Source: Ruania alkalisoli
GTDB taxonomy: Bacteria; Actinomycetota; Actinomycetes; Actinomycetales; Beutenbergiaceae
Direction: 5' to 3'
Length of the DNA: 64,000 nt
NCBI RefSeq assembly: GCF_014960965.1
Contig: NZ_CP063169.1
Span: forward strand, 1,335,581-1,399,580
Below, piece by piece: positions 31,001 to 33,965 of the stretch (positions are counted from its first letter, which is position 1; the number at the start of each line of letters is the position of its first letter). The notes beneath the pieces were generated by a model, which did not search any database, was not told the DNA's origin, and saw only the letters and a list, made by a program, of their open reading frames with translations. Both the position numbers and the translations under genes were made by a program.

Positions 31001-31116
31001 AGCCGGAGCAACCCCGGCACCGGCTGGGTTGTTCCTGCCGATGCCGACCGATGCCTACCGATGCCGTTGTGGACCGGTCACGTCGCTGTCGGTCCCGGCT
31101 GTCACAATCGACAGCG

Positions 31117-33150
31117 ATGACAGACCCGGACCAGCTCCTCGAGGCACTCGACCCCGACCAGCGCGCCGTGGCCGAGCAGCTCACCGGCCCGGTGTGCGTG
31201 CTCGCGGGCGCCGGCACGGGCAAGACCCGAGCGGTCACCTACCGGATCGCGCACGGAGTGCACTCCGGGGTGTACAACCCACAGACCGTGCTCGCCGTCA
31301 CCTTCACCGCCCGAGCGGCGGGGGAGATGCGCACCCGGCTGCGCGATCTCGGGGTGCCGGGTGTGCAGGCTCGCACATTCCACGCGGCCGCGCTTCGTCA
31401 GCTCTCCTACTTCTGGCCCAGTGCGATCGGCGGGGGCGTACCGCGGATCATGGAGCACAAGGCCCCACTGATCGGTGAGGCTGCCGGACGTCTTGGTCTC
31501 TCGGTGGACCGGCTGGCCATCCGTGACCTCGCCGCCGAGGTCGAGTGGGCGAAGGTCTCGCTGGTGACCGCTGACGACTACCCGCGGGCCGCCGCCGCGA
31601 CTGACCGTAGCGGGGTGGCCGGATTCGATCCCACGACCATCGCGCGGCTGTTGTCGGTCTACGAGGACGCCAAGACCGACCGGAACGTCATCGACTTCGA
31701 AGACGTCCTGCTGCTGACTGTCGGCATTCTGGCAGAGCGTGCCGACGTCGCCGAGAGGGTCCGCCGCCAGTACCGGCACTTCGTCGTCGATGAGTTCCAG
31801 GATGTCTCCCCGCTCCAGCACCGGCTGCTCGAGCTCTGGCTCGGCGGACGGGATGACTTGTGCGTGGTCGGTGACGCGGCTCAGACGATCTACTCCTTCA
31901 CCGGTGCCACCCCCCGGTACCTCACGGACTTCTCACGCCGGTACCCGGAGGCGACCGTGGTACGCCTGGTGCGCGACTACCGGTCCACGCCGCAGGTGGT
32001 CTCCCTCGCCAACTCCGTCCTCGCCGGTGCCGGCCGATTCCGGTCGGCAGCCTCGGTGGAACTGCAGGCGCAGCGACCCTCCGGTCCCGCGGTGCGATTC
32101 GTGGCGCACGACGACGATGAGGCCGAAGCGAGCGCGGTTGCGGCTCGGGCGGCCGAGCTGATCCGCAGCGGCGTTCCCGCCGCCGAGATCGCTGTGCTCT
32201 ACCGCACCAATGGGCAGTCAGAAGCGTACGAGCAGGCGCTGAGCCGTGCCGGGATCGGCTACTTGGTGCGAGGGGGCGAACGGTTCTTCTCACGAAAAGA
32301 GGTGCGTGACGCCGTCGTGCTGCTGCGCGGGGCGGTGCGCAGCCAGGGTGAGACGCCGCTGCCGGACGCAGTACGTGACGTGCTCACCAGCGCCGGCTGG
32401 GCACCGGAGGCCCCTGCAGCACGTGGAGCAGTCCGGGAGCGATGGGAGTCGCTCAACGCGCTCGTGCAGCTGGCCGATGACCTCTACGCCGCGAGGCAGG
32501 CTGACATGGGTGAGCTCGTCGCCGAACTCACCGAACGCGCCGCCGCCCAGCATGCCCCGACCGTCGACGGCGTCACCCTGGCCTCGTTCCATGCCGCGAA
32601 GGGGTTGGAATGGGACGCGGTCTTCCTCGTCGGAGTCTCGGACGGGCTCCTGCCGATCTCCATGGCCGAGACCGAGGACGCCGTCGCAGAGGAGCGGCGG
32701 CTGCTCTATGTCGGGATCACGCGCGCCCGCGAGCACCTCGAGCTCTCGTTCGCCCGATCACGCAACGCCGGCGGACGAGGCACCCGCAGACCCTCACGGT
32801 TCCTCGATGGCATCTGGCCCAGCGATGAGCGACCTGCGCGTCGTCGCCGGGGTAAGGCAGCCCGTGCCGAGGCGCTCGCCTCCTCACTGACGCTGGAAGA
32901 CGCTGACCCGGAGGTGTTCGACCGGCTCCGGACCTGGCGAGCCGCGACGGCGCAGAGTCTGGACAGGCCCGCGTTCACGGTGCTGCACGACAGCACACTC
33001 GTCGCGATCGCCGCTGCCCGGCCCACGCATATGCGTCAGCTCGCGATCTTGCGGGGAATCGGCCCCACCAAACTCGAGGCGTATGGCGCCGAGATTCTCG
33101 CCGTCGTCCGCGACGATGGAGGATCCGAGGGCCCCGGCGACGGGGCCTGA
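31117..33150 (+). CDS. uvrD2: UvrD2-type superfamily I DNA helicase with HRDC domain, no tetracysteine motif
   Basis: 677 residues. The motor has Walker A (AGAGTGKTR, K36), motif II (VVDEFQD, D225-E226), GDAAQTIYSFTGA and FHAAKGLEWD. A C-terminal HRDC domain spans about residues 600-670 (PAFTVLHDSTLVAIAAARP). Mycobacterial UvrD2 has four zinc-binding cysteines between motor and HRDC. Here that linker (WPSDERPARRRRGKAARAEA and on) contains none. ATG 31117 lies 8 bases after CACAAT, without a ribosome site. Confidence 0.92.
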   Translation: MTDPDQLLEALDPDQRAVAEQLTGPVCVLAGAGTGKTRAVTYRIAHGVHSGVYNPQTVLAVTFTARAAGEMRTRLRDLGVPGVQARTFHAAALRQLSYFWPSAIGGGVPRIMEHKAPLIGEAAGRLGLSVDRLAIRDLAAEVEWAKVSLVTADDYPRAAAATDRSGVAGFDPTTIARLLSVYEDAKTDRNVIDFEDVLLLTVGILAERADVAERVRRQYRHFVVDEFQDVSPLQHRLLELWLGGRDDLCVVGDAAQTIYSFTGATPRYLTDFSRRYPEATVVRLVRDYRSTPQVVSLANSVLAGAGRFRSAASVELQAQRPSGPAVRFVAHDDDEAEASAVAARAAELIRSGVPAAEIAVLYRTNGQSEAYEQALSRAGIGYLVRGGERFFSRKEVRDAVVLLRGAVRSQGETPLPDAVRDVLTSAGWAPEAPAARGAVRERWESLNALVQLADDLYAARQADMGELVAELTERAAAQHAPTVDGVTLASFHAAKGLEWDAVFLVGVSDGLLPISMAETEDAVAEERRLLYVGITRAREHLELSFARSRNAGGRGTRRPSRFLDGIWPSDERPARRRRGKAARAEALASSLTLEDADPEVFDRLRTWRAATAQSLDRPAFTVLHDSTLVAIAAARPTHMRQLAILRGIGPTKLEAYGAEILAVVRDDGGSEGPGDGA

Positions 33151-33211
33151 GAAAGAAATCTGAAGAAACTTCGAAAAAAGACTTGGGCGTTCGTGGATGG
33201 CGTCGTAGTCT
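33149..33211 (+). promoter_or_regulatory. whiB7 promoter with A-rich WhiB7-type element
   Basis: TTGGGC (33183-33188), a 17-base spacer and TAGTCT (33206-33211) form a good promoter. Directly upstream is an A-rich stretch (GAAAAAAGAC and several AGAAA runs from 33149), conspicuous in this GC-rich window. In mycobacteria WhiB7 binds SigA and an AT-rich motif just upstream of the -35 to activate its own gene; this site has that layout. Confidence 0.8.
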
Positions 33212-33287
33212 GAATCCCGTTCCGAGACAGCAGAGCCGTCGCCTAGCCAGCGAGAAGCGGTTCCCGAGGCCTGAGGAGGTGAGCGCA

Positions 33288-33464
33288 GTGGAGATGAAGA
33301 ACCTGATCAGCACGTCGGCGATCAACGCCCGGTCTGGCAGCACCTGCGCGCTCACCATGGCGCGCTTGCGTGCTGCTGCCGGCGTGATCGGCGGGAGCAG
33401 CACCGATATCGGTGCCAACTCCCTCGGCGCGCCCGCCCCCGGCTCCGTCCCGGATCTGAACTGA
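33288..33464 (+). CDS. whiB7 leader peptide (upstream ORF)
   Basis: A 58-codon ORF lies in the whiB7 leader. GAGGAGG (33273-33279) stands 8 bases before GTG 33288; an in-frame ATG at 33294 is less well spaced. The peptide (MEMKNLISTSAINARSGSTC at its start) resembles no domain. Its stop (33462-33464) lies 20 bases before a terminator hairpin and well before whiB7. In mycobacteria and Streptomyces, translation of such an upstream ORF controls whether transcription passes the terminator; inhibited translation gives read-through. Confidence 0.75.
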   Translation: MEMKNLISTSAINARSGSTCALTMARLRAAAGVIGGSSTDIGANSLGAPAPGSVPDLN

Positions 33465-33484
33465 CACCACTCCTGTCGCAGATC

Positions 33485-33516
33485 AGGCCGCGGAGCCCAG
33501 CACGGGTCCGCGGCCT
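33485..33516 (+). terminator. attenuator terminator in the whiB7 leader
   Basis: A perfect 10-bp stem (AGGCCGCGGA 33485-33494 with TCCGCGGCCT 33507-33516) with further CCC/GGG pairing in the loop is followed by a T/C-rich tail (TTACTCGTTCCT). It stands between the leader ORF and whiB7, the position of the conditional terminator of the whiB7 attenuation system. Confidence 0.8.
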
Positions 33517-33596
33517 TACTCGTTCCTCGAGGTCCACCTCGGCGAGTGAAGCCCGGTCCCATTCCCGGCTCACCCACCATGCCTCAGGAGCATCTC

Positions 33597-33965
33597 GTGC
33601 AGTACACCTCAGTTCTCGACCATCTGACCCGTGGTGGTTCGGCGACTGGCTGGAACTTCCCCTCCACTTCCGTCGATCTGACAGCCACCGACGACCAACC
33701 CCTGCCCTGCCAGGACGCCTCCACGCAGGACCTCTGGTTCGCTGAGCGCACTGACGAGGTCGAGCGGGCCAAGGCCTTGTGTGCCTCCTGCCCGCTCAAG
33801 GCCGAATGCCTCGCCGGCGCGGTGCAGCGGCGTGAGCCGTGGGGGGTCTGGGGTGGGGAGGTCTTCGTCGACGGGGAGATCGTGGCGCGCAAGCGTGGCC
33901 GCGGCCGCCCCCGCAAGAACGACCAGCTCGCGCCGTCCGCCTCACGCAGCACCTCCGCTGCGTGA
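33597..33965 (+). CDS. whiB7: WhiB7-type transcriptional activator
   Basis: About 122 residues from GTG 33597, chosen because CAGGAG lies 6 bases upstream; in-frame starts at 33546 and 33579 lack this. The four iron-sulfur cysteines are C38, C62, C65 and C71. The signature EPWGVWGGE follows, and the AT-hook KRGRGRPRK (99-107) marks WhiB7 among Wbl proteins. It binds the sigma factor and AT-rich DNA to switch on intrinsic antibiotic-resistance genes. Its place after uvrD2 is the same as in mycobacteria. An N-terminal extension of about 30 residues is longer than in M. tuberculosis. Confidence 0.93.
   Translation: MQYTSVLDHLTRGGSATGWNFPSTSVDLTATDDQPLPCQDASTQDLWFAERTDEVERAKALCASCPLKAECLAGAVQRREPWGVWGGEVFVDGEIVARKRGRGRPRKNDQLAPSASRSTSAA

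Follow-up and report, generated by a model that had tools for sequence, protein, structure and literature searches.

A probable ribosome-mediated transcription attenuator upstream of whiB7 in Ruania alkalisoli and a candidate macrolide arrest motif in its drifting leader peptide

WhiB7 controls intrinsic drug resistance in Actinobacteria, and its gene in Ruania alkalisoli raises the question of how translation of a short upstream open reading frame (uORF) could decide whether whiB7 is transcribed. The window, as we call it here, is the whole stretch of DNA that was analyzed, 64,000 nucleotides (nt) from contig NZ_CP063169.1 (positions 1,335,581 to 1,399,580); all features described below lie on its forward (+) strand. 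Our reading is that whiB7 is very probably under a ribosome-mediated transcription attenuator, in which an antiterminator helix and a terminator helix exclude each other. An earlier note on this DNA, made without database searches, had proposed that a leader ORF and a conditional terminator work here as they do in mycobacteria and Streptomyces. This proposal is well supported by the covariation of both terminator and antiterminator, the latter being the decisive element, which the note lacked.

In general terms, the switch is built of three parts. The uORF starts with GTG at 33288 and runs through 58 codons to a TGA stop (33288–33464), preceded by the Shine-Dalgarno (SD) sequence AGGAGGTGA (33274–33282), which ends 5 nt before the start. 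The terminator hairpin (33485–33516) starts 20 nt past the uORF stop, and its 5′ arm (33485–33498) includes the word CGGAGCC (33491–33497). The antiterminator strand, GGCTCCG (33441–33447), lies in the codons of Pro-Gly-Ser near the end of the ORF and is the exact complement of that word. From these parts, we infer the order of events, the induction by drugs, and the autoregulation as follows. In unstressed cells, ribosomes would run to the uORF stop and cover GGCTCCG, leaving the terminator 5′ arm free; the hairpin would form and RNA polymerase would stop short of whiB7. If a ribosome-targeting drug or a shortage of amino acids slows or stalls ribosomes farther upstream in the uORF, GGCTCCG would be exposed and could pair with CGGAGCC once the latter is made, before the 3′ arm of the hairpin exists. 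Termination would then be delayed or skipped, whiB7 would be transcribed, and WhiB7 would boost its own promoter. A likely, if less certain, extra element would be a built-in stall site of the +X+ type (Arg/Lys-x-Arg/Lys; here Arg-Leu-Arg at codons 26–28), at which ribosomes carrying a macrolide or ketolide would halt well before they reach the antiterminator strand.

The evidence comes from a comparison with related loci. The first scan covered 101 loci, from which nine duplicates or paralogues had been removed beforehand, and two were skipped (L094, where no motif matched, and L020, whose upstream DNA was too short). By rule, 96 loci carry an ORF of at least 20 codons with an SD of at least four bases, some of them doubtful; calls are doubtful in odd or non-orthologous loci such as L014, L015, L060, L067, and L086. 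A perfect stem of at least 8 bp that begins between −10 and +60 nt relative to the uORF stop is found in 67 loci; in 57 of them the core C[AG][CT]GGA is present, 7–33 nt after the stop. L018 stands outside the stem and run, arm-word, 61-leader, and folding counts, and is an empty entry among the 45 representative leaders (similarity below 0.6) and in the leader alignments. A later scan gave no uORF by rule in six of 29 new loci (L137–L142), nor in L107. Some relatives (L025–L031, L041, L055, L065, L068) have a uORF, mostly with a strong SD and Arg-x-Arg, without the canonical terminator core, so a different read-out must exist there. Past the terminator of L045, L058, L064, and L066, GGTCCTG...CAGGA may form another hairpin, ending directly ahead of the whiB7 ribosome site, which could add translational control.

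Both helices are conserved and covary. The hairpin of the window, whose placement 20 bases after the uORF stop had been read correctly in the earlier note, folds at −26.9 kcal/mol, compared with −14.1 ± 2.9 in shuffled sequences (z −4.4; 0 of 200 as good). Alignment A1 was made with MAFFT without reference to structure from 29 chosen loci, 27 of them distinct, of the Ruania family and neighboring families (Cellulomonas, Promicromonospora, and Sanguibacter types). In it, 96.9% of terminator cells are paired, with 22 double-change cells against 6.3 in shuffles, and five pairs are changed on both sides, which one of 500 shuffles equalled; the number of terminator pair types is not above shuffles. 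For the antiterminator, 95.4% of cells are paired, with 14 double-change cells against 5.0, and sliding either register by one to three columns leaves at most 51.2% paired. The comparison names switch nucleotides by covariation: the Ruania family has C in column 102 and the others have T; the antiterminator partner of this column, column 35 (G or A), is paired in 24 of 27 rows and unpaired in three, while its terminator partner, column 113 (G or A), is paired in 26 and unpaired in one. That both columns follow column 102 is what a switch with two exclusive helices predicts. Similarly, in the R. albidiflava group (L011–L013) the Gly codon is GGT where the window has GGC, and the arm is CGGAACC where the window has CGGAGCC; this is a synonymous change matched by its RNA partner. 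The bulge of the terminator holds G in Ruania and, in most others, A, with the antiterminator register of A1 unchanged; the difference in the bulge looks as if the terminator 5′ arm were constrained by the antiterminator register.

The same correspondence extends across classes of terminator arm. Four classes (GGAGC, GGAGT, GGAAC, and GGACC) cover 55 of 57 loci, and in 40 of these 55 the complement of the locus's own arm occurs in the last 48 nt of the uORF, whereas the rate for words of the other classes is 0.073 per class and locus. With permuted arms the mean is 13.6 (maximum 27 in 20,000; p 5e-5), and with shuffled codons it is 8.1 ± 2.5. The weakest class is the mostly mycobacterial GGACC (5 of 13); in several of its mycobacterial loci, pairing takes another register, GTCCGTGG with CCACGGAC, in place of the GGCTCCG/CGGAGCC of the window. 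When the RNA is folded only up to the start of the 3′ arm, pairing between arm core and uORF tail exceeds the mean of 40 codon shuffles in all 57 loci; on average, 5.98 of the 7 nt of the arm core are paired, against 3.62. The longest pairing run is likewise longer on average, 6.58 against 5.25 (67 loci).

Several results weigh against this account. In A1, the number of antiterminator pairs with double changes (two; 318/500) and of antiterminator pair types (five; 500/500) is not above shuffles, and L010 combines GGT with an unchanged arm, leaving a G-U pair. In the window itself, folding before the 3′ arm pairs 6.88 nt against 4.56, a value that a fraction of 0.07 of the shuffles equals or exceeds, and the longest-run test gives p 0.23, being significant singly in only 11 of 67 loci. 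The duplex free energy of uORF tail and arm, compared with codon shuffles, reached p ≤ 0.05 in four of 52 loci (mean z −0.34). We consider this test too permissive in GC-rich RNA, and run-length, word, covariation, and folding tests took its place; the supporting tests were thus chosen after one negative, and all are reported. The negative or weak outcome of the duplex-energy and longest-run tests cautions against over-reading single loci. With the 3′ arm included, folding favors the terminator, more than half of whose outer pairs form in 52 of 57 loci, and 8.7 of 10 in the window. Since thermodynamics is on the side of the completed terminator, antitermination has to be kinetic or assisted. 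The tail of the hairpin, TTACTCGTT, is U-poor, and a generic terminator scan, which needs five T in eight, gave 0 matches; tails in relatives vary from CATTTGTGT to TTTTTTGTT. A generic sigma-70 scan gave 0 promoter matches at the leader, whose promoter, described below, is weak by consensus. Finally, the loci are related by descent, and the counts are not independent events.

How does this switch relate to known ones? Lee, Lee and Roe 2022 is reportedly the defining paper for uORF attenuation of whiB7/wblC, in Mycobacterium and Streptomyces. Classical trp-type attenuators hold exclusive antiterminator and terminator helices, chosen by the position of the ribosome. The Ruania leader resembles them in its mutually exclusive helices, which would be set by ribosome position, and differs in that it has no run of one amino acid and would sense translation generally or drugs; nor was a protector hairpin identified in it. 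The whiB7/wblC mechanism of uORF, terminator, and antiterminator is itself published, as passages of PMC10727445, PMC9618640, PMC11550727, and PMC13393426 set out, and the working proposed here is the same; thus, the Ruania locus belongs to that known class. Dinan 2014 describes, in the text available, conserved attenuation with a uORF and terminator in two mycobacteria (PMC4128351). A passage of PMC10727445 calls whiB7 uORF attenuation typical of actinobacteria, so its occurrence outside mycobacteria, which the earlier note had presented as special, is not. Shared with the published attenuator are the orthologous gene, the promoter, a leader of ~350–380 nt, a uORF with a strong SD, a terminator right after it, and an antiterminator built from uORF and terminator sequence; the Ruania locus departs from it in the uORF peptide, the U-poor tail, and an extra 5′ element, GCCTAGCCAGC. 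The E. coli toiL uORF of topAI-yjhQ, as excerpts of PMC12121999 describe it, is also one uORF sensing several drug classes, in another gene and another organism, and is likened here by description only. In Rfam, the leader matches no described family, and only a tRNA in the window reaches the gathering score.

If the RNA is under constraint, what of the peptide? All 11 Ruania-family loci aligned have, at the equivalent position, an ORF of 55–59 codons with an SD; the 58-codon ORF and strong ribosome site of the window had been noticed first. In seven Ruania-family pairs, the ratio of nonsynonymous to synonymous differences (pN/pS) is 0.52–1.55 for the uORF and 0.02–0.26 for whiB7, so the leader peptide as a whole appears to drift almost neutrally. 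What is kept is the start context, the length, Pro-Gly-Ser, whose conservation RNA pairing explains, and mostly an Arg/Lys-x-Arg/Lys motif. The earlier note, which looked to related genera for conservation of the leader, was right that the peptide sequence is the locus's own: the ORF plan and the hairpin are conserved, the peptide is not. It was mistaken in taking a longer leader ORF for a real difference. Leader ORFs in the loci examined have 29–113 codons, and those before a canonical terminator core 37–103 in the first set and up to 113 in the later sample, a range that makes 58 codons ordinary.

The motif kept in this drifting peptide, Arg-Leu-Arg in the window (33363–33371), ends 69 nt before the antiterminator strand and is a candidate stall site. 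Among the 45 representative leaders, Arg-x-Arg occurs in 35, compared with 13.7 ± 2.9 in residue shuffles, and Arg/Lys-x-Arg/Lys in 40, compared with 20.2 ± 3.0. Neighboring spacings are not enriched (adjacent Arg/Lys pairs 16 vs. 20.3; two residues between, 24 vs. 19.7), and four residues between are mildly enriched (27 vs. 19.5, P 0.009). In the set of 61 leaders, Arg-x-Arg is found in 49 against 19.1 expected, and frames +1 and +2 and the antisense strand of these leaders show no excess. Pieces of 60 residues from the upstream protein have a small excess (88 of 122 vs. 79.5). A later sample, collected with a Kitasatospora query, yielded 23 leaders by one rule, of which 19 are unlike the first set and 13 are representatives; its peptides were inspected before the calling rule was fixed, and the rule itself considers nothing beyond SD, length, and terminator. 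In these 13, Arg-x-Arg occurs in 11 (vs. 6.2, P 0.0065) and Arg/Lys-x-Arg/Lys in 12 (vs. 8.2, P 0.016), with no enrichment at spacings 1, 3, and 4. Along the same lines, 19 hand-picked leaders without the canonical terminator core have Arg-x-Arg in 16, compared with 8.2, and none of 2,000 shuffles is as high.

Both the residues and the place of the motif vary. The middle position freely takes many residues (P, V, L, A, E, H, R, and others), and mycobacterial leaders and that of Cellulomonas terrae begin the motif with Lys in place of Arg (KHR, KRR). In the window's group (L006–L010) the motif lies at codon 26. The R. albidiflava group carries it at codons 14–15 and shows R-I-D-R or R-I-V-R at the second site; both sites have the motif in L016 and L017, and only the first in L019. 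The near-neutral surrounding peptide, the free middle residue, the swap to Lys, and the moved site favor selection on the +X+ motif itself. As for its position, the last upstream motif ends at least 18 nt before the antiterminator strand in 34 of the 42 loci in which both could be placed (pairing run of at least 6, within 40 nt of the stop). A distance of 18 nt should lie outside the footprint of a stalled ribosome. The enrichment thus suggests a programmed stall upstream of the antiterminator.

Precedent for such a stall exists. In the available text of PMC8298421, Arg/Lys-x-Arg/Lys is the main ketolide arrest motif and one of several for macrolides, and ErmDL-type leaders make use of it. The Ruania leader resembles these in carrying Arg-Leu-Arg in a leader ORF before a resistance determinant, where a stall would refold the RNA (PMC8298421). 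It differs in that its motif is at codons 26–28, compared with 6–8 in ErmDL, that arrest is a prediction, and that its output would be transcription termination before a regulator, compared with translation of a methyltransferase. Erythromycin induces whiB7 in M. abscessus, as a passage of PMC4974804 reports, and a 2025 paper states, in the part available, that antibiotic-induced stalling within the whiB7 uORF had not been tested (PMC12121999). We therefore put forward, at somewhat less than an even chance, that whiB7/wblC leader peptides in Actinobacteria are arrest peptides, each a drifting ORF held to a +X+ macrolide/ketolide stall motif that usually lies upstream of the antiterminator strand. 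It is equally tentative that, for such peptides, the site of the motif can move and the read-out can change, the core being missing in some relatives and the motif kept. Were this true, ribosomes should arrest at the Arg-x-Arg codons when erythromycin or telithromycin is present, WhiB7 would have a programmed macrolide sensor beyond the general sensing of slow translation, and the macrolide response across many families would be explained despite an unconserved leader peptide. The attenuator type is already known; what appears new is the +X+ motif kept in drifting whiB7 leaders, no mention of which was found in the literature searched, a search that was not exhaustive.

The strongest rival, to which we give an even chance, is that the leader is a general sensor of translation only, tripped by slowing anywhere in the uORF. 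Arg-x-Arg would then be no programmed arrest site; it would be inherited, or serve tunnel charge, slow Arg codons, or arginine sensing, and the motif may indeed serve something other than a macrolide stall. WhiB7/WblC answers many drug classes and amino-acid starvation (passages of PMC12121999 and PMC11550727), which a general sensor would do, as it would also leave the peptide otherwise free to drift. Further points weigh against the arrest motif. It is absent from L022, L074, L081, and L104 among the 45 representatives and from L123 among the later 13, and in four more leaders (L052, L092, L096, L124) the only motif, counted above as a match, lies so close to the end of the ORF that a stall would come too late to expose the antiterminator strand. 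Seven of the 42 placed loci have no upstream motif (L022, L052, L074, L081, L092, L096, L112), and in L100 it lies at −7 nt. The shuffle ignores common descent, and related peptides therefore inflate the +X+ counts and weaken the statistics. The WhiB7 protein scores 46 of 61 against 24 (z 5.9) on the same Arg-x-Arg test, through its AT-hook. ErmDL itself, according to the accessible part of PMC8298421, stalls with erythromycin even without RLR, which touches the stall step. Against a purely general sensor stand the specificity of the enrichment for one spacing, its absence from other frames and the antisense strand, and the replacement of the first Arg by Lys.

The remaining rivals are much less likely. 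A fixed partial terminator, with whiB7 controlled at its promoter and the uORF incidental, would draw on the promoter itself, which is of WhiB7 type: its −35 box TTGGGC (33183–33188) and −10 box TAGTCT (33206–33211) are separated by 17 nt (33183–33211), and an A-rich block 5′ of the −35 (33160–33182), seen in the sequence and in aligned relatives, is a candidate site of WhiB7 autoregulation, a role suggested by published WblC/WhiB7 promoters (PMC7157823, in part). These elements had been described before and indeed recur: by eye, the A-rich block, TTGG, and TAnnnT are present in all 13 filled rows of the relatives' alignment. The leader length of ~380 nt first given also holds, provided that transcription starts ~7 nt past the −10, as would be expected, and whiB7 at GTG 33597. 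We regard a fixed terminator as very unlikely, given that antiterminator word and terminator arm change together from class to class and that the uORF with its SD keeps its place in the Ruania family. Mainly translational control, in which stalling in the uORF would refold the RNA at the whiB7 ribosome site or ribosomes would reinitiate, fits the 19 hand-picked loci that keep a uORF without the canonical terminator core; it is highly improbable in the window, where the whiB7 ribosome site is ~69 nt past the hairpin and the terminator is strongly conserved in the Ruania family. Least credible of all is a functional small protein of 58 residues, since, for all that the ORF is likely translated and keeps its N-terminus and length in Ruania, pN/pS is near or above 1 in four of seven pairs, the product has no Pfam or NCBIfam match, and its conserved C-terminal Pro-Gly-Ser is accounted for at the RNA level.

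The gene under control is whiB7 (33597–33965; 122 amino acids, stop TGA), as the four Cys, GVWGG, and AT-hook first read from the sequence indicated. The protein shows these Cys, GVWGG, and RGRGRPRK, matches Pfam Whib (1.9e-13), and has as its top match among solved structures 'WhiB7' 7kif (E 6.9e-26; best other Wbl 1.7e-6), which we take to be the M. tuberculosis structure. Matches were found in 8/8 genomes of the genus and 24/24 genomes of the family searched. Its start is most likely GTG 33597, with a conserved AGGAG at 6 nt spacing; ATG 33579 was rejected as a start, being without an SD. The immediate upstream neighbor of the leader is a uvrD2-like helicase with an HRDC domain (31051–33150), and the gene order, NUDIX hydrolase with a zinc ribbon (nudC-like), glutaredoxin-like protein, UvrD helicase with HRDC, and whiB7, presumably matches Rv3199c to Rv3197A of M. 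tuberculosis; this agreement supports WhiB7 orthology. Genomes G003, G007, and G009 have second, more distant WhiB7-like genes (L014, L015, L032), where no similar leader was called.

The leader also has a conserved 5′ element (33233–33263) with the nearly invariant 11-base core GCCTAGCCAGC (33241–33251) and a possible stem-loop. In the Ruania family and in related genera (Pseudactinotalea and Serinibacter types), this core or a near copy precedes the uORF start by 42–48 nt, also in some loci without the canonical terminator core. It may form the loop of a hairpin whose stems vary, but in an alignment of the element (A3) RNAalifold gave no base pair common to the loci, which leaves the stem-loop unproven. 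The window's genome has two copies of GCCTAGCCAGC, one of them here, compared with 20 of the pattern read backwards. The second copy (L143) was judged to be there by chance: it is beside the starts of two divergent ORFs, one glycosyltransferase-like by eye and one other, and no similar leader was seen. At about the same place, relatives of the Promicromonospora, Oerskovia, and Sanguibacter types (L040, L042, L045, L058, L064, L066, L070–L072, L080, L084, L090) have a different short hairpin-like sequence, with a GAGA or GAAA loop and varying complementary arms, e.g., GGCCGAGAGGCC.

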